From the IMG/VR virus record IMGVR_UViG_3300025305_000055, positions 1 to 37,880 of that record: 37,880 bases of DNA; one strand, 5' to 3'. A program made the translations under genes and the position numbers. Source of the stretch: a virus. Shown here piece by piece: positions 3,859-35,754 of this stretch. A model generated the notes under the pieces. That model had not been told where the DNA came from and did not search any database. It worked only from the letters and a program-made list of their open reading frames with translations. Numbering within the stretch: position 1 is the first letter of the stretch; every line of letters begins with the position of its first letter.

Positions 3859-3863
3859 AGCAT

Positions 3864-3905
3864 GGAGGGGAGGGGGAGAAATCCCCTTCCTCTCCAAGTT
3901 TTTTT
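3864..3905 (+). terminator. Rho-independent terminator after zinc-ribbon gene
   Basis: A 14-bp stem (3864-3877 with 3882-3895) contains two G.U pairs valid in the plus-strand RNA. It has a GAAA tetraloop (3878-3881) and a tail of seven T (3899-3905). This is a textbook intrinsic terminator and the strongest in the window. It isolates the 3127-3858 gene from the small-gene operon downstream. Confidence 0.9.
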
Positions 3906-3982: not shown

Positions 3983-4177
3983 ACGACTCCTTGTAACAAT
4001 ATCAATAAAAATAATCAATACTCATAAACATAGACCGAATCCGTGCCCGCAGCCGAACCGGAGTCGTCACCTTTTACTCGTTTTCAACTCTGGCACGGCC
4101 AGCGTACCACACGCTCCTCGTTCCTCGTCGCTGTGTGGTAATGCTGGTGGTGCCCGAGATTGAAACGGGTAAAAGGT
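3983..4177 (+). ncRNA. Candidate structured RNA / leader of the small-gene operon
   Basis: This is the core of a 311-base gap (3906-4216) without a gene. Bases 4069-4114 pair with 4130-4177 in a long imperfect hairpin: about 40 pairs, four mismatches, one or two bulges. The 15-base loop (4115-4129) contains TCCTCGT twice in tandem. Four pairs (4078/4168, 4084/4162, 4098/4148, 4104/4142) are G.U in a plus-strand transcript but would be A/C clashes in the opposite strand, so selection appears to act on plus-strand RNA. Just upstream, ACGACTCC (3983-3990) pairs with GGAGTCGT (4060-4067) and encloses an A-rich segment. It ends 39 bases before the first gene of the operon. No homology to a known RNA class is recognised. 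The remainder (3906-3982, 4178-4216) is A/T-rich with nothing I can name. Confidence 0.6.
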
Positions 4178-4216: not shown

Positions 4217-4519
4217 ATGAATCCAATTCAAAAGTTCATAGTACTCAATCTATTTGAGAATACAAATGAAGTATTCAAATTTATACACAGAATGAATATG
4301 ATGAGAGCTAAAAATAATGTAGAGAATTTAGCATTCAAATATAAAGCTGCAAAAGTAGAGTTAGTTGAATTAAATGAGACAAATCAAGAACATTTCGTTC
4401 CAATGATACACGCATTTATAAAAGAAACAGATGAACAAATTGCTGGATCTGAGTATTTAACAGATGAAGAATTCCATCTAGAAATGAAAGAAATAAACGA
4501 TTGGAAGGAGACCAAATAA
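4217..4519 (+). CDS. Small early hypothetical protein (100 aa)
   Basis: First gene of the A/C-rich small-gene block. The 100-residue product is predicted helical and rich in Lys, Glu and Asn (NENTNEVFKF early, KETDEQIAGSEYL late), soluble, with no membrane segment or recognised motif. AAAGGA lies about ten bases upstream of ATG 4217. The upstream structured leader suggests this gene heads the operon. The function is unknown; a host-takeover or accessory role is only suggested by position and size. Confidence 0.65.
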   Translation: MNPIQKFIVLNLFENTNEVFKFIHRMNMMRAKNNVENLAFKYKAAKVELVELNETNQEHFVPMIHAFIKETDEQIAGSEYLTDEEFHLEMKEINDWKETK

Positions 4520-5339: not shown

Positions 5340-5594
5340 ATGCACACATCTACAATTAGACCTGATACTAGTTCTGACAAAATCGAAGTACAACAAGCTA
5401 GTTATTATGGTCGAAGACAAGACTTTGAAAAATCAGTAATCGTTAGAATTAAGGAACACAAATCACAAAAATGGGACACACTAGAGGATGCAATGGTCCA
5501 TCAACAACGAAATTGTCAAATCACTCTGGACAAAATCTCAATCGCTACATTAATCTCATCACTCATAGCTATTCGAGACAATCAAAATGAGTAA
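5340..5594 (+). CDS. Small early hypothetical protein (84 aa)
   Basis: An 84-residue protein starting at ATG 5340 with GAGG six bases upstream, immediately after the preceding stop. Residues about 28-38 (FEKSVIVRIKEHK) look like a beta strand, followed by a helical C-terminus (LDKISIATLISSLIAI). Its last codons overlap the next gene. The compact form could be an antirepressor or host-factor inhibitor, but no family is recognised. Confidence 0.65.
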   Translation: MHTSTIRPDTSSDKIEVQQASYYGRRQDFEKSVIVRIKEHKSQKWDTLEDAMVHQQRNCQITLDKISIATLISSLIAIRDNQNE

Positions 5595-7897: not shown

Positions 7898-8149
7898 ATG
7901 AAAGAATTCGAAGTCGAGCTTTACAGAATGACACACTATTCACAATATGGAACATTCGTCATTGAAGCTGAATCAGAACTTGACGCTGAAAAGAAAATCA
8001 ACAAACTCATAGCCGAAGATGCTATTTCCAGTGATAACTATTACAACAACGAAGAAACAGGAGCATGGGAATACGAACCAGATGAACCCGGTGATGAAGA
8101 AGAATCAGATGAATGGGAAATACAAGTCATTAATGAGAAAGAAATCTAA
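7898..8149 (+). CDS. Very acidic early hypothetical protein (83 aa)
   Basis: An 83-residue protein with an N-terminal alpha/beta portion (EVELYRMTHYSQYGTFVIEA) and an extremely acidic C-terminus (EYEPDEPGDEEESDEWE). Such net charge is common in phage proteins that mimic DNA or inhibit host nucleases, but no specific family is recognised. It ends in a TAATG junction at 8149. Confidence 0.6.
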   Translation: MKEFEVELYRMTHYSQYGTFVIEAESELDAEKKINKLIAEDAISSDNYYNNEETGAWEYEPDEPGDEEESDEWEIQVINEKEI

Positions 8150-8304
8150 TGGATCAAACAGAAGAAGATCAAGAACATCTAACCCAAGAAGATCAAGAAC
8201 GTAGATGGAGAGAAAGGAAAAATATCGAACGTAAAAACGATGCTGAATCCTACAAAGGCTCATACTGGCTAGGAAGCATAAGAGAGTTAATTGAAGATGG
8301 ATGA
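8149..8304 (+). CDS. Small charged early protein (51 aa)
   Basis: A hand-read frame of 51 codons. ATG 8149 shares its A with the previous stop (TAATG), and TGA 8302-8304 lies inside the next gene. The protein is Glu/Gln/Arg-rich and probably a single helix (TEEDQEHLTQEDQERRWRER). Its DNA holds a direct repeat of AAGAAGATCAAGAAC at about 8163 and 8187. Function unknown. Confidence 0.5.
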   Translation: MDQTEEDQEHLTQEDQERRWRERKNIERKNDAESYKGSYWLGSIRELIEDG

Positions 8305-9366: not shown

Positions 9367-9885
9367 TTGACACACCAAGAAATAGAAGAGATATTCAAAA
9401 CCCAAGACAGCAAGTTGAAAGGATATCTATATAATAATTTCAACCGGATTCCAAAAGAAGAACGGGAGGATATATTACAGGAAACCTATATCACACTGTT
9501 ATCGAATCCGCACAGGTTCGACACTGAACGCGACACATTCCCCCTCATGTGCCAAATGGCAAAGATGCGAGCATTAGGACGAATCAGACACTTCAAAATG
9601 GCTGATACGAAACACGAATCAATCTATATCAAGTACACCGAACCACAAACTGAAATATCAGACCCCGCATACATACTCCGCATTGAAGATGAGTTGACAA
9701 ATAGACAAGCCGAGATCTTTCACCTATTCGTACAAGGATACTCATACTCAGAAATCATGGATATGTGCAACATCGCGAGACAAACTGTCAACACAACTCT
9801 CGCTAGGGCACGGGAGATTCTCCGTTCGATATTTTCGTTGCATATGCGTCCAAGTCACCCCACTCACCAATATCAAAATCAATAA
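9367..9885 (+). CDS. Sigma-70 family (ECF-like) RNA polymerase sigma factor
   Basis: A 172-residue two-domain sigma factor. Region 2 spans about residues 10-75 (EEREDILQETYITLL, then QMAKMRALGRIRHF). Region 4 spans about 105-155 with a clear HTH (LTNRQAEIFHLFVQGYSYSE, then IARQTVNTTLARAREIL). The start is TTG 9367 behind GGGAGG (9355-9360, 6-base spacing). It should bind host core RNA polymerase and redirect it, probably to middle or late phage promoters. Its last 83 bases overlap the 3' end of the minus-strand primase-helicase, which may allow antisense interference. Its target promoter is not identifiable here. The family call is firm; the regulon is unknown. Confidence 0.85.
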   Translation: MTHQEIEEIFKTQDSKLKGYLYNNFNRIPKEEREDILQETYITLLSNPHRFDTERDTFPLMCQMAKMRALGRIRHFKMADTKHESIYIKYTEPQTEISDPAYILRIEDELTNRQAEIFHLFVQGYSYSEIMDMCNIARQTVNTTLARAREILRSIFSLHMRPSHPTHQYQNQ

Positions 9886-16888: not shown

Positions 16889-17375
16889 TCGTAGTTTTCA
16901 GTCTAAGGATAGCCAGCGTGGGTCATCTGGATTCAGCAGACCTATCGTTCCTGATGGGAACTACCAGTTGGAAATTATTGATTCAGAGGAGCGCAAGTTT
17001 AACTCGGGCAATGAAGGCGTAATTGCCACGTTCGAGATTGTCGATGGTCCGGTAGGCGCTGAAGAGCATGTCGGAACGCAGCTTACTTCGGCGTTCGTAG
17101 ATTCTGAAGCATCGTACTGGTTCCAACGTAGTTTCGCTGAAGCGCTCAATGGTATGGAATACCCTGAAGGACAACAGGTAGCCGTTCCGTGGTCTTCCGC
17201 AAATGGAAAGCACGTTGGGGCTGTACTGACAGCAGAAGTTGGTCGTGACTGGGTGAACCGTCAGGGTGAGACTGTCAAGGGACAGTTAGAGTCTAAGATT
17301 AAGCGCTTCGTCGATCACCGCCCGTGGGGTAAGACAGAAGAGCTTATTGAAGAGTTCTCGTCACTGGGTGTCTAA
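16875..17375 (+). CDS. DUF669-like ssDNA-binding protein
   Basis: GGAGGG (16864-16869) lies five bases before GTG 16875, which gives a 166-residue protein; longer in-frame starts would overlap the ATPase gene more deeply. The sequence (PIVPDGNYQLEIIDSEERKF, then ATFEIVDGPVGAEEHVG) follows the DUF669 pattern of phage OB-fold single-stranded-DNA-binding proteins that accompany Sak4. It should coat ssDNA for annealing and replication. It overlaps the ATPase gene by 14 bases and the VRR-NUC gene at its own 3' end. Confidence 0.75.
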   Translation: MPASDRSFQSKDSQRGSSGFSRPIVPDGNYQLEIIDSEERKFNSGNEGVIATFEIVDGPVGAEEHVGTQLTSAFVDSEASYWFQRSFAEALNGMEYPEGQQVAVPWSSANGKHVGAVLTAEVGRDWVNRQGETVKGQLESKIKRFVDHRPWGKTEELIEEFSSLGV

Positions 17376-17679
17376 TCCAGAGACTCGTCTCCAACAATCC
17401 ATTATCCGCCACCTCCAATCGGAGGTGGGTGGATGGTGGGTTAAGTATCATGGGTCTGCTATCACACGAGCCGGAATACCGGATATTTTGGGCGGCTGTG
17501 AGGGACTTTTTTTCGCGTTCGAAGTAAAAACATCAACAGGAAAGACAACAAAGATTCAAGACTACACACTAAAGGAACTCAACGATAGCGGCGCAGGTGT
17601 CGCTCGTGTTGTCGATAACCCTAAAGATGCTGTAGCGATTGTACACACAGCCTTAACTAACAGGAGGCAACATGATTAA
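17368..17679 (+). CDS. VRR-NUC domain nuclease
   Basis: A compact nuclease of about 103 residues from GTG 17368 (TTG 17347 would add seven). The PD-(D/E)XK core is visible: an early Glu in ETRLQQSIIRHL, the Asp of GIPDILGG, and the E-x-K of FFAFEVKTSTGK. Stand-alone VRR-NUC proteins are common next to phage replication genes and are thought to cut Holliday or replication-fork structures. It overlaps both neighbours by 8 bases. Confidence 0.85.
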   Translation: MSNPETRLQQSIIRHLQSEVGGWWVKYHGSAITRAGIPDILGGCEGLFFAFEVKTSTGKTTKIQDYTLKELNDSGAGVARVVDNPKDAVAIVHTALTNRRQHD

Positions 17680-29238: not shown

Positions 29239-32200
29239 TTATCGGGTTGGGGGAGCAAAGTCTCGGCCCCCACCCGCCACTGCAGCAGCTATTAGGCTAC
29301 TCGGGCCGCTTCTTTGTCTGGTACTTGTCCTTGTACTTGGCGAACGGGACGATGAAGGTTTGGGAGGAGCATATCCACGTGCAGCCCAATATTCACTGAA
29401 GCTCGGAAGATCAGCCTGAGAAATCAAAGTGAGATCCCATGCATTAAGATGGGGGAACTGAAGGAGAATCTCACCCATTACGTCGCGCACAAGCCTCGTT
29501 GATGGAGATGTCGCAGCCAGCGCATCATGCTGCGGACGGGTAATCAATCCATTTTGTTTTTCTTTAATGGCTGAACGTTGAGCCATGATCGGTTGAATCA
29601 CGGCCCTCTGCCAGTATCGCCACGCCGCTTCAGACGCTGTTAAATTCTTGTACAGATCGGCCCGGAACATTTCTTCTGTAATGTCAAACTCACGCCCAAA
29701 CTCTACGGCTTCATTGAACGCCGTTTCTTGGGCGTTATAGAATGCATCCCAATCAGGACCGCTCTCATCGTCAATAAACGAAGATTTCTCTACGCTATAG
29801 TACATATCACGCATGGCTGAGAGCGCTTCACTGTCACCCGAATCATCTTCATCAGCCTTACCAAACCATTCCTGTGCCCTCTCTGTCCACGGCGCAATAT
29901 CGCCACTCGCTATATGAGTTTCTTTTTTTAGGCGTGCCAATCCGATCAAACCTTTAGTACCCTTCTCTTCACTCCCATAATACTTCTCTCGAATAGGATC
30001 GTCGTTATTTGCCGCGAAATCCATAGGACGTAATCGAGACATTGCCAATCCATAATCACGTCTTAAGTCCCTAATGTCATTAGTAAGAAGAGTACGCAGC
30101 GGCTTATCTTTAAAATACGCATTAAGATCTGTATTGGCATCTTCAAACTCATCGACATTATCTTTGGTAACGATTCGACCCCCGGATGTTTGAAATGAGT
30201 ACGGATTCTCATTTGAACCCCGTCGAACGCGATTAATTTTCTCCTTTCGCGTTACATCAAGATAACCCCGGATTGAAAGGGTTGAACCAATCTTACTCAT
30301 AATCGCGTCTTGTTCCCAACGATCAGGGAACGCGGATTGAACTTCTCGCATAATACTCAGCGGTGCCGGAAGATTATTCTCTTTCAACCACGTATCTGTT
30401 TGATCAGGTGTCATATCTTTAGTCTTAATAAAGAAGTCTCGGGCAAAGATCTTTGAAAATACACGCAGAATCGCATCAGGCAGCGTAATATTTTTTGCCA
30501 GTTGTGCTTCAAAGAGCGGTAACATGCTTTCCGAAACATGTTCCTTAATCCAGTTTTCACGATCTTGAATAAACCGCTCCAACCCGTCTTGTTCAAGAAC
30601 GTTAACAACTCGTCCCCTGATTTCGTGCGTGGTCTCATAATCTTCGGCATTATTCATAGCAAAGTATGCACCCACAATATGTTTCATGGCCGCTTCACGA
30701 CCACCGGGGAACATCGGAGGTCCGGTCTCGGGTCCACGCATTCGCACGTCATCCGTAATCCCGATATCTTCGTCACTTAATTTAAACCGTTGCTGAAGAT
30801 TTTTTCTGCTCTGTCGCAGGGCTTCATCGATTTCATTACGAACGCGCAAGCCATGAACTACATCAGTACCTTCTTTTTGTTCCTCTGCAGCAGCATTCAG
30901 TGCCTCAACCTCAAAGAAATATCTACCAATATTAACCCTTCGCTTAATTTCTGCGGTATCTTTTCTTGTTAGCCAAGAGTACGGAAGCCACGGTTTCGAC
31001 TTTAAGAATTCTTTTGCTTCATCTACACGTCCGCTATCTACAAGGTCAAAATACGCCCGTTGAGCCTCGTCCCTTTCTTTATCGATTGCAGGATAGGAGC
31101 GAACACCGCCGAATGTGAAGTTAATTTCTCGATAGTCAGCCCGTTTACTATAATAGCGTTGCATCGCTTCAAGTGCTATTGGATTTGGATTCCCTTCCTT
31201 TATATCAATTATCGCTTGCTCTGCGTCAGACTCGTTAATCTCGCCGTTCTTGAACATTTCCGTTAATACTTTACCCGTACCGATTATATTTCCTTGAGTT
31301 AGTCCATGTTGAGATATCCACTCTGAAGCTCCTTCCCCAAAACTGCCCTGACCCGCCCATGCCTTGGTAAGACCCTGTATCGATCCACCAAGACCGTTGA
31401 GGGATTCTTCAATACCCGGAATAATCCCATCCCATCCAAACAGAGCATCGTCTACTTCAGGAGGAAGCGTATTTCGAATGTTCTCGTCGCCTATGGCATG
31501 TCGTAGACCTTGTATAATCATACTGATATGAGGATAGACTTGAGTTAGACCGATCATTTCAGTAACCTGAAATAAGGATTTCAGATTAAACCCGAACTCA
31601 GAGTCTTCGCCTTCATCGCCCCAACTCATGATTTCAAACATAGGCGTACCGTATCCACCAGTAAGGAATTGTTTCGGATCAAGACGTACTTCTGTCCCAT
31701 CTGGCAGGGTGACAATTCGCATCGTACCTCGAAGATGCAGGGGCAAATCTCGATCCATCTCATACCACGCACTCATAATACGCGAAAGGGCAATGAATTG
31801 ACCCGGATTATGCACGAGTTGTCGCATCTGGAACATAAAGAATTTCATGCTCCAATACGGATACGGCATGACTGTTTGTAGGGCAACTTCAGCACGGTTG
31901 TATTGATACGCGAAAAGCGTTTCGGCTGATGCTTCTTGTCCTCCCAATCCTGCTTTAGTCAGCGTTGAACGCACTGTTCGCGAAACATCATCTGCCGTTG
32001 CCGTTATAGGAACCTGTTCGGCAAGCTCGGATGCTGTATTACCCCACCCATAATTTAACTCATGAGCAGCACGATTCTGAATCGAGCGCGTTCGAGTTAT
32101 CATATCCCCTATAGGAGCGGTACCCCGATCCGGGAAGACAGCACGAGCAATCGTACCTTCAATCGACTCCCGAACTTTCTCTATCTCCCTCTGGCTTCCT

Positions 32201-35200
32201 CGCCTTAGCATACTATTTATCGAATCGTTAAGCAACGCATCTGTCAGCGTAGTATTCCCGAACTCTTTATCAACCATACGAACAAGTGTGACGAACAGTT
32301 CTTCAGGGACAACAAGAGTACTCTCATCGACTGGTGCTAACTCGATGCCATGTTTATAAGATACGTTACCATATAATGCCTTAATGCGTTCAACCCGCCT
32401 TGATTGGGCGTGTGCCATGAATTCGGCTCGTACTTCAGGCAACATCTTTTTCCCCTCATCGCGTGCGTATGCAATCGTTTTATTAATCTCCGTCATCCCC
32501 TCAGTTATATCTTTCATAAGGTTTTTACCGAGCGTTGGCGATGTTTTACCCGCACTTTTCATTCCCCGGTCTATCGCCGCATTCCATATCGACACCATTT
32601 CATCCCCGAGTAATCTATCACTGACCTCCCTGTATTGATACAAGACATCGACCATCAACTGGTCATGTTCTTTGCGGTATATCGCGCCAGCGGTAGCCGC
32701 AGTATTCTTTCTATCACGGCTATATCGTGCTCCGATCTCAGTGATTCGTTCGCCCTTATATTTACGAATTTCATCAAATGCTGCTTCAACTCGCTTCATC
32801 AATACTCGAACTGCACGTTGTCCCTCCTCATCGAGTCCGCTAGTCATTCGCTTACTAAGAGGATCGAGAATTCTCGTTTGTAATATACGGATGTCTTCTT
32901 CGTGCTTAAGATAGCGTCCTAACGTATCATACGTTCGCTCATTAATCTCACCCCCGGCATCACGGAAGAGACGTAACAGGTCATACGCTTGATGGCCGGG
33001 TTGTCCGGGGTACACTTCATAAAACCGCTTGATTGCGTCGTCTGTGTTTTTCTCAATATCAGTAATAGCCTGTTCCAAGGCAACCCGTATTTGCGAGCCT
33101 CTCGCTCCATCAGGAAGATTACGGAGTCGCGCTTCAACGATCTCTCGTGTTTGCGGATTAGAGAACGGTAACATGACATCTTCTACTCTACGGATAGCCT
33201 TACGAGCCGTTGGATCAATGACTTTTCCTGTGTTAATTTCAGCAAGTCGCATTAACCACCAAGCGCTAACGACGTCTGGTTTAAATACCCAATCCTCACC
33301 GCGATTGAACGCATTAATAAGTTGATGCTTCATTACATCGGGCATATCGAGTGACATCAGGTCTTCTGAAAATATATCTTTTGCCATTCGTTCAGTAACC
33401 ATCTTGTTCATCCCACGATGTTGACCAGTCTCTGTAATACTAACCCCACCCTTAATAAAATCCATCAGTCCAGTATTAATATCAAACTCTGGACGACCAA
33501 TCCAATGTTCTAAAGCGCTGCCGAATTTGAGTTCGATATCAGTTTTCGGAATCTTAACGTCACGCAGTTTCACCGTTCCCTTTCCGACAAAGGGTATAAG
33601 TTTCTCCCCGACAATAGGCAGAAATCCGGGTAGAGGAGGCGGTACATCCCCTCGACCTATACCACGTCCCGACAGTGCTGCGTCATCAACAATGTCGTCT
33701 GCTGATCTTAACGTAGCGCCTGTAGCCTGACCAATAACACCGGCCCCGGTTGTCGGACCCGAAAAAGCTTTTGGACCCATTAGCACATGTGGATCGACTC
33801 CCGCATCCACAACTTTTCCAATCCATGCAGACGCAGCCGGGTAACGAAATATGTTCAACCCCTGATGTTGCGATACCGTGACCATACCGCCCACAAGATT
33901 TAATACGACAAAACCGGGGCGCATTAATAACCACATCGAACCAAGCTGTGACTTAGCAACCATGGAGAGATACCGAAACGCATTTACATTGCCCTCCTTA
34001 ATCCACGGGAGCCAAACCCTCGGCCCATCCCATCCCAGCGATTCAGCGTATTCAACCAATATCTTGCGATAAAAAGTATCCAGTACATGTGTTGGTGAAG
34101 GATGCAATCCTGCTTCAACCATGTCTGAAGCCCACTTTAAATTCATATCGAATGGAAGCGGCGGACGGTTATCAACACTACCGTATGCTTTCAACGTGCT
34201 TTTATTTGCCTTTACTCCGTTTTCCAGTAAATCGAGTCGTTGATTTTTTACATGGGTATGTAGCTTATCAATATCTGGACTCCCGCGCATTGCGGCCAGT
34301 GTATCCAACAGCCGTTTATTCTGAAGCGCGGGATTTCTATCGTAATATTTCACCTGCATCATTCGCTGCCAATCTTTTTCATTCATAGCAAGATTGGTTA
34401 TATCCATAAGCACCTGCGAAATTTTTACTGCGTCACCCGTAGCTTCGGCTGCGTTAATAAGCGCTGGAATTGTCGTTTCTAGTTCATGACCAAAAACCTT
34501 CACCCGCTCATCGGCTGTTCGCGCAATCGCCTGCCAATTCCAGTCCGCCAAAATCTTTTTATCTAGCTTGTCAATCCACGGTTTCAACGGGCGGGACACA
34601 AACTTTAACGGTCCTTTTAGAGCAAACCCTATTCCCCTCGCCAACAAATTCATTCCGGGCATTGAGGGAAATAACGCAAATTCGATGGGCCACCTGATAT
34701 TTTGCGAAAGAGCCCCTTCAAGAACCGGGGGCCAGTCAGCCGTATTTACATCATAGAAATCCTGCGCGTCTTGCGGGTTTGGGCTATCCAATATTGCTTT
34801 CAATCGCTCCGGGGTTGCAGGATCTGCGTACAGTTCAGGATTCCTCATCCCTTGTTGTCCCGGCAAATGACCCCCGGCCCACGGCACGACTGACCAGTGA
34901 CCCGGCTTATCCTGCCCAATGTCACCGTGTAGAAGCTGAGTCGCCATGAATTTTCCAAGCCAGAATTTAGTTTCTGCCGCAGTAGATTCAGCACCACGTC
35001 CGAGCACTCCCATAACTAGTCCGGCAGTTGGTAATATACGCCCAAGGGCTGTGAGACCACTCGATTCTATATTCTCTGATTCTTGTTTTACCCAATCTTC
35101 AACATATTTACGTGCGGCGACTTTTTCTTGAACCGCAGCCGGGGCATTAGGATTTTCGGCGAACCCGGATAAAAGAATATCGTTAGCGGCGCTTCCAACA

Positions 35201-35754
35201 TCCGTAAGAACTTTGCCCAACCCGGATAAAAGTAATTCAGGGCCAGTTTTTCGTTCCAGTTTCGGTGGCGGGGGAGGGGGCGCTACTGGAAATGCAGCCT
35301 GACTGCCGGGTATGCCTCCAAATTGTTCTGATTCGAGTGCGCGGCTCATCCCGATTCCAGCCGCTTGTTGAAATCGCTTTGCGAATTCAGGGACTTCAAG
35401 CCCGGATGCTTCCTCCGCTAATGCATAGTCACCAACTTCTTGCGTGGTCTCCGTGTAATCGAGTCCACGTTGTCCCAGCGATGGAAACGCAGCACTTATT
35501 TTTTGTGCAGATTCAGCGTCAAAGATCTGAGCAAGCTGCTCTTGTGTCGCGCCCTCTGCCAACATAAAGTCAGCGATATCAGGCGCTGTCACTTCTTCAG
35601 GAGTTTTCCCGGCCCGTGCTGCGGCTTTCTCGTGTAAAGCCTTTACACTAAGATCTGTTAACCGTGTCGGATCGTGGGGTAAAAACGCATCTCTATCCTG
35701 CTCTTCAAGAGGATCAGGGAACCGTACACCCGGATCGGGGTAATTAAGACTCAC
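29239..35754 (-). CDS. Giant virion-type protein (2171 aa)
   Basis: A 2171-residue protein read from GTG 35754, which overlaps the preceding gene by 11 bases. No conserved catalytic motif is recognised. It has a Pro-rich linker (six Pro at about 159-164) followed by a long, mostly helical, charged body. Hydrophobic stretches include one near residues 603-625 (LGSMWLLMRPGFVVLNLVGG) and aromatic-rich parts (PYPYWSMKFFMFQM). The C-terminus is Ser/Arg-rich. Size, lack of enzyme motifs and position between portal-type and scaffold genes suggest an internal virion (ejection) protein of the podovirus kind. The absence of any other very large gene or tape measure also fits. It is not clearly homologous to N4 virion RNA polymerase from what can be seen. 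Confidence 0.7.
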   Translation of the reverse strand: MSLNYPDPGVRFPDPLEEQDRDAFLPHDPTRLTDLSVKALHEKAAARAGKTPEEVTAPDIADFMLAEGATQEQLAQIFDAESAQKISAAFPSLGQRGLDYTETTQEVGDYALAEEASGLEVPEFAKRFQQAAGIGMSRALESEQFGGIPGSQAAFPVAPPPPPPKLERKTGPELLLSGLGKVLTDVGSAANDILLSGFAENPNAPAAVQEKVAARKYVEDWVKQESENIESSGLTALGRILPTAGLVMGVLGRGAESTAAETKFWLGKFMATQLLHGDIGQDKPGHWSVVPWAGGHLPGQQGMRNPELYADPATPERLKAILDSPNPQDAQDFYDVNTADWPPVLEGALSQNIRWPIEFALFPSMPGMNLLARGIGFALKGPLKFVSRPLKPWIDKLDKKILADWNWQAIARTADERVKVFGHELETTIPALINAAEATGDAVKISQVLMDITNLAMNEKDWQRMMQVKYYDRNPALQNKRLLDTLAAMRGSPDIDKLHTHVKNQRLDLLENGVKANKSTLKAYGSVDNRPPLPFDMNLKWASDMVEAGLHPSPTHVLDTFYRKILVEYAESLGWDGPRVWLPWIKEGNVNAFRYLSMVAKSQLGSMWLLMRPGFVVLNLVGGMVTVSQHQGLNIFRYPAASAWIGKVVDAGVDPHVLMGPKAFSGPTTGAGVIGQATGATLRSADDIVDDAALSGRGIGRGDVPPPLPGFLPIVGEKLIPFVGKGTVKLRDVKIPKTDIELKFGSALEHWIGRPEFDINTGLMDFIKGGVSITETGQHRGMNKMVTERMAKDIFSEDLMSLDMPDVMKHQLINAFNRGEDWVFKPDVVSAWWLMRLAEINTGKVIDPTARKAIRRVEDVMLPFSNPQTREIVEARLRNLPDGARGSQIRVALEQAITDIEKNTDDAIKRFYEVYPGQPGHQAYDLLRLFRDAGGEINERTYDTLGRYLKHEEDIRILQTRILDPLSKRMTSGLDEEGQRAVRVLMKRVEAAFDEIRKYKGERITEIGARYSRDRKNTAATAGAIYRKEHDQLMVDVLYQYREVSDRLLGDEMVSIWNAAIDRGMKSAGKTSPTLGKNLMKDITEGMTEINKTIAYARDEGKKMLPEVRAEFMAHAQSRRVERIKALYGNVSYKHGIELAPVDESTLVVPEELFVTLVRMVDKEFGNTTLTDALLNDSINSMLRRGSQREIEKVRESIEGTIARAVFPDRGTAPIGDMITRTRSIQNRAAHELNYGWGNTASELAEQVPITATADDVSRTVRSTLTKAGLGGQEASAETLFAYQYNRAEVALQTVMPYPYWSMKFFMFQMRQLVHNPGQFIALSRIMSAWYEMDRDLPLHLRGTMRIVTLPDGTEVRLDPKQFLTGGYGTPMFEIMSWGDEGEDSEFGFNLKSLFQVTEMIGLTQVYPHISMIIQGLRHAIGDENIRNTLPPEVDDALFGWDGIIPGIEESLNGLGGSIQGLTKAWAGQGSFGEGASEWISQHGLTQGNIIGTGKVLTEMFKNGEINESDAEQAIIDIKEGNPNPIALEAMQRYYSKRADYREINFTFGGVRSYPAIDKERDEAQRAYFDLVDSGRVDEAKEFLKSKPWLPYSWLTRKDTAEIKRRVNIGRYFFEVEALNAAAEEQKEGTDVVHGLRVRNEIDEALRQSRKNLQQRFKLSDEDIGITDDVRMRGPETGPPMFPGGREAAMKHIVGAYFAMNNAEDYETTHEIRGRVVNVLEQDGLERFIQDRENWIKEHVSESMLPLFEAQLAKNITLPDAILRVFSKIFARDFFIKTKDMTPDQTDTWLKENNLPAPLSIMREVQSAFPDRWEQDAIMSKIGSTLSIRGYLDVTRKEKINRVRRGSNENPYSFQTSGGRIVTKDNVDEFEDANTDLNAYFKDKPLRTLLTNDIRDLRRDYGLAMSRLRPMDFAANNDDPIREKYYGSEEKGTKGLIGLARLKKETHIASGDIAPWTERAQEWFGKADEDDSGDSEALSAMRDMYYSVEKSSFIDDESGPDWDAFYNAQETAFNEAVEFGREFDITEEMFRADLYKNLTASEAAWRYWQRAVIQPIMAQRSAIKEKQNGLITRPQHDALAATSPSTRLVRDVMGEILLQFPHLNAWDLTLISQADLPSFSEYWAARGYAPPKPSSSRSPSTRTSTRQRSGPSSLIAAAVAGGGRDFAPPTR

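Follow-up and report, generated by a model that had tools for sequence, protein, structure and literature searches.

The put element of phage HK022 is a structured leader that acts in cis and is able to serve a whole operon whatever its first gene may be; it is built of two short stem-loops and works without any protein of the phage. Long duplexes are likewise found upstream of early genes in other phages, where the N leader of lambda is sensitive to RNase III and the early mRNA of T7 contains RNase III sites. In phage P22, the arginine-rich N peptide binds the boxB hairpin, an element of 15 nucleotides (PMC11480772).

The hairpin considered here was found in an uncultivated phage, in a virus record of 37,880 bases, which was analysed whole and is referred to below as the window. 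Its genes include those for a family A polymerase, an SNF2-like helicase, a primase-helicase, a sigma-like factor and an SU10-type capsid protein. Near-identical contigs of the window exist, and the more informative relatives are a contig of 16.6 kb (L010) and one of 44 kb (G007, a contig of L009), the latter of which repeats its opening 40 bases 99 nt before its end; polymerase and helicase identity among these relatives is approximately 73-77%. The sigma-70-like factor (9367-9885) is about 42% conserved in both G007 and L010, and a protein of 2171 residues with no Pfam match (29239-35754) is 28% identical in G007, as against 95% for the capsid protein. Neither a tRNA nor a tmRNA was found in the window; a tRNA-like segment with a T-arm-like stretch, GGGTTCGATTCCC, was noted at L009:1055-1120, and was not called by ARAGORN. 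A second strong hairpin was also observed at 17385-17440 of the window, in the opening part of a small ORF (17347-17679) that overlaps the end of the ORF upstream, and the DNA there shows high conservation across the window, L009 and L010.

The original prediction of a long hairpin between positions 3983 and 4177 of the plus strand was confirmed by folding, by shuffled controls and by a scan of the whole sequence. With an energy of -77.5 kcal/mol for the whole (z -8.0 against shuffles), that stretch folds into a hairpin at 4069-4177, and the hairpin folded by itself reaches -65.8 kcal/mol on the plus strand (z -10.1) and -57.1 kcal/mol on the minus strand. It ranks first for stability among the 1888 positions of a 120-nt sliding scan (GC-corrected z -5.8), is present in a single copy in the genome, and shows a stability of z -10 in the window and in L010 alike, with a folding advantage of the plus over the minus strand of 8.7 and 8.0 kcal/mol, respectively.

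The stem comprises 42 pairs when aligned with its homologue, close to the number of about 40 first proposed; its interruptions, first counted as four mismatches, are a U bulge near 4084, a U x C mismatch (4091/4155), a G x G mismatch (4097/4149) and three single-base bulges (4132, 4141 and 4159). Its 5' arm (4069-4114) has a base that is variable yet paired and a core, from 4082 onward, that is nearly invariant; the core of the 3' arm (4130-4177) is nearly invariant up to 4164, and its base covaries with that of the 5' arm. Between the arms lies a pyrimidine-rich apical loop (4115-4129) that contains a TCCTCGT repeat, in place of which L010 has a longer, C/U-rich apex. Wobble pairs had been described as four in number and all G-U in plus-strand RNA: their direction holds, while the window itself contains three (4078/4168, 4098/4148 and 4104/4142), and the homologue adds the fourth, at alignment columns 46/89. 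On the plus strand each of the four is a G-U pair and none an A-C one, an outcome that orientation alone would give once in 16. A further 8-bp helix upstream, joining 3983-3990 to 4060-4067, forms in the window as anticipated and has no counterpart in L010.

One diverged homologue was identified, at approximately positions 148-270 of L010, and occupies the equivalent site ahead of a small-gene operon. Across the core arms, 62 of 65 positions are identical between the two phages, whose shared genes display synonymous differences of 0.49-0.82; if the hairpin is as old as the shared genes tested, such identity has a binomial probability near 4e-15, at an expected identity of 0.51 that reflects the lowest synonymous difference among those genes. 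That lowest value (pS 0.49) belongs to a gene for a 51-residue peptide within the operon, because of which some past exchange of the region is possible. Outside the core, five pairs in the basal and apical parts of the stem have changed on both sides with pairing preserved, as against zero to one when the partners are slid; that level of covariation was reached by 12 of 500 shuffles, which, with only two lineages compared, is near the limit that two sequences allow. The G x G mismatch and the single-base bulges sit at identical alignment columns in the two phages, and an indel of 8 nt in the loop leaves no reading frame common to both arms, so that a coding function in both phages was rejected. 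In the sole homologue found, pairing was not lost while sequence was kept, the outcome that the original prediction had named as evidence against it; and its proposal that the element is selected as plus-strand RNA is supported by the compensatory pairs, the near-invariant core, the plus-strand energetics and the lack of a shared coding frame.

Among the records searched, a covariance model built from this pair matched only the same lineages, and pattern scans of IMG/VR returned the same two, with all other matches judged to be chance by fold or by covariance model; these scans demand exact short stretches, and distant homologues could escape them. One pattern scan of a genome collection gave two matches, both judged to be chance. 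A 23-nt match in a Curtobacterium plasmid does not fold alike, and weak phage matches with E values of 0.4-5 were dismissed. In Rfam 15, no family reached its gathering cutoff anywhere in the window, and a permissive search of the hairpin regions yielded only sub-threshold chance matches, so that a known Rfam RNA was rejected. Searches for relatives by way of the polymerase, the SNF2 helicase and the capsid protein recovered few contigs, most of which do not extend over the hairpin site, and a covariance model search found no hairpin in G007. Because L010 shares the hairpin with the window, and yet over much of its genome is closer to G007, the presence of the element is patchy: it was either lost in G007 or exchanged.

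The surroundings of the hairpin bear directly upon its likely mode of action. The strong terminator said to precede it was located at 3863-3896 of the plus strand, in a segment (3863-3904) where a 15-bp stem and a T-run form an intrinsic terminator for the upstream gene; no convincing promoter was recognised between that terminator and the hairpin in a promoter search. Downstream, the small-gene operon opens with an ORF (4217-4519, plus strand, 100 residues) that begins 39 nt past the stem, and the distance from stem end to start codon is 36-42 nt in the window and in L010. No similarity was found between the first ORFs of the two operons. No U-run follows the stem, after which the window reads TAATTTATTG and L010 reads CAATTAAAG; an intrinsic terminator was rejected for this reason, and the terminator scan does not call the hairpin. 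Promoter-like sites show no excess over the small genes of the window or L010, in contrast to the several near-consensus sigma-70 promoters, three with a TTGTCAA/TTGACAA dyad, that lie among the small genes of G007, although that contrast is drawn across only three genomes. The three copies of the dyad, of the form TTGTCAA-N5/6-TTGACAA (L015:273 and 531, and L017:3817, in G007), overlap the -35 elements of such promoters ahead of successive small genes, and are possible operators.

Taken as a whole, these comparisons of sequence and predicted structure indicate that the hairpin is very probably a functioning RNA element of an unreported kind, and that its most likely role is that of a plus-strand RNA within the operon leader. 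Of the two placements originally offered, leader or independent RNA, the former fits better, given the missing U-run and the proximity of the start codon to the stem in both phages; and these same features, together with the co-directional operon and the differing first gene, argue that such a leader would serve the operon rather than a single gene. The best explanation, to which we assign a probability of roughly 0.45, is that of a plus-strand 5' leader element that is bound by a protein in cis and governs the whole small-gene operon. The hairpin would be transcribed within the 5' leader of the long rightward operon, and a protein would recognise the almost unchanging core of its duplex, G x G mismatch and bulges included, as the leader emerges; recognition by a protein is suggested because the core is so nearly invariant and its irregularities recur. 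The bound leader would then act in cis on the entire operon, either on the processivity of RNA polymerase or on the processing and stability of the transcript. Two observations count against this explanation: on its plus strand the operon contains few sites resembling terminators that an antiterminator would have to overcome, and the relative G007 manages without the hairpin.

The best candidate for the binding partner would be an arginine-rich peptide of 51 residues encoded within the operon itself (8149-8304, plus strand), with a host protein as the alternative. The peptide is 76% identical in L010, where other small genes are 25-45% identical, and is thus the most conserved of the small genes; it was not detected in G007, and was found only alongside the hairpin. 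It is predicted to form one helix (mean pLDDT 83), has no family or structure match, and includes several acidic residues within its basic stretch. Inside its ORF, at 8154-8202, a unit of about 24 bp is imperfectly repeated in tandem. The co-occurrence of hairpin and peptide is weak evidence, because at least one more small gene (5340-5594) is likewise restricted to the two hairpin-bearing phages. That the two form a new, co-inherited regulatory module of phage, in which the small helical peptide would bind the long, mismatch-bearing leader stem and control all of the early operon, with no sequence kinship to N/boxB or to put, is an unlikely proposal.

Several other functions could be imagined for such a structure. 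A long duplex with asymmetric bulges, placed directly 5' of an ORF with a polycistronic operon behind it, might be expected of an RNase III processing site or a 5' stabilising stem, at which cutting of the duplex by host RNase III, or shielding of the 5' end, would determine how stable the operon mRNA is and how well it is translated, as at the sites of lambda N and T7, and its 42 pairs supply the length, some two helical turns at the least, by which such sites are judged; they depend, however, upon shape over sequence, and the near-invariance of the core sequence makes this role rather doubtful. It is somewhat harder still to credit an RNA that is freed from the leader and acts in trans, either upon other RNAs or by sequestering a host protein as a decoy or counter-defence, even though the patchy presence of the element ahead of variable small genes would suit it. 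The contact proposed for such an RNA, between its pyrimidine-rich loop and purine-rich Shine-Dalgarno sequences, draws upon an apex that is 81-83% pyrimidine in both phages, but pairing as good as that between the loop and downstream Shine-Dalgarno sequences arose in 1.4% of shuffles for the window and in 80% for L010, and neither a terminator nor a promoter of its own was recognised.

Conserved pairing alone cannot separate RNA from DNA, and the primase-helicase of the phage matches the RepB primase domain (PF16793, 3.1e-8), both of which lend some plausibility to a strand-specific single-stranded DNA hairpin for priming or origin function, comparable to the ssi sites of RepB-type primases. 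This reading is nonetheless improbable: the wobbles are without exception G-U on the plus strand, a position just 5' of an ORF is one that leaders typically occupy, and, contrary to what would be expected of a RepB-type ssi site, G007 retains a primase that is 77% identical in amino acid sequence to that of the window while lacking the hairpin. A neutral mobile palindrome, similar to a MITE, would account for the sharing of the hairpin by the window and L010 in spite of the latter's closer resemblance to G007, but the element is present once, no target duplication was seen by eye, no copies were found in the genome collection or elsewhere in IMG/VR, and its substitutions both preserve pairing and spare the core; that explanation is very improbable, as is an accident of assembly, given the occurrence of the hairpin in independent contigs.

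Strongly constrained in sequence as well as in pairing, and found in phages that have no close relatives in culture, the hairpin is a candidate for a new family of phage RNAs. Should it prove to be a protein-bound operon leader, a long-stem type would join the few phage leader RNAs that are known, and a small peptide-RNA pair would become directly testable.

Comparison with the systems already described reveals partial likeness to each of them. The RNase III sites of the lambda N leader and of T7 share with this locus a long duplex before early genes, and differ from it in that the sequence of the core, and not its shape alone, is conserved here. The put leader of HK022, compared by description rather than by sequence, is likewise structured, and acts in cis as the present leader would, but the element here is a single long stem. 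The RNA anti-CRISPRs (Racr; PMC10651486) are also structured RNAs that are encoded by phage near accessory genes, and a ATTGAAAC stretch in the 3' arm of the hairpin recalls the ends of some CRISPR repeats; the present stem is much longer, however, and that stretch reads ATTGAACC in L010. The lambdoid nut/boxB sites and their N proteins present a similar plan, in which the leader of an early operon contains an RNA hairpin and the operon itself encodes a small arginine-rich partner, here only a candidate one, and they differ in that a stem of about 42 pairs with a pyrimidine-rich loop takes the place of the short boxB hairpin and its purine-rich loop, and in that the operon downstream contains few terminator-like sites. 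The likeness between the 51-residue peptide and the N peptide is a resemblance of pattern only, and one that may serve as a lead.
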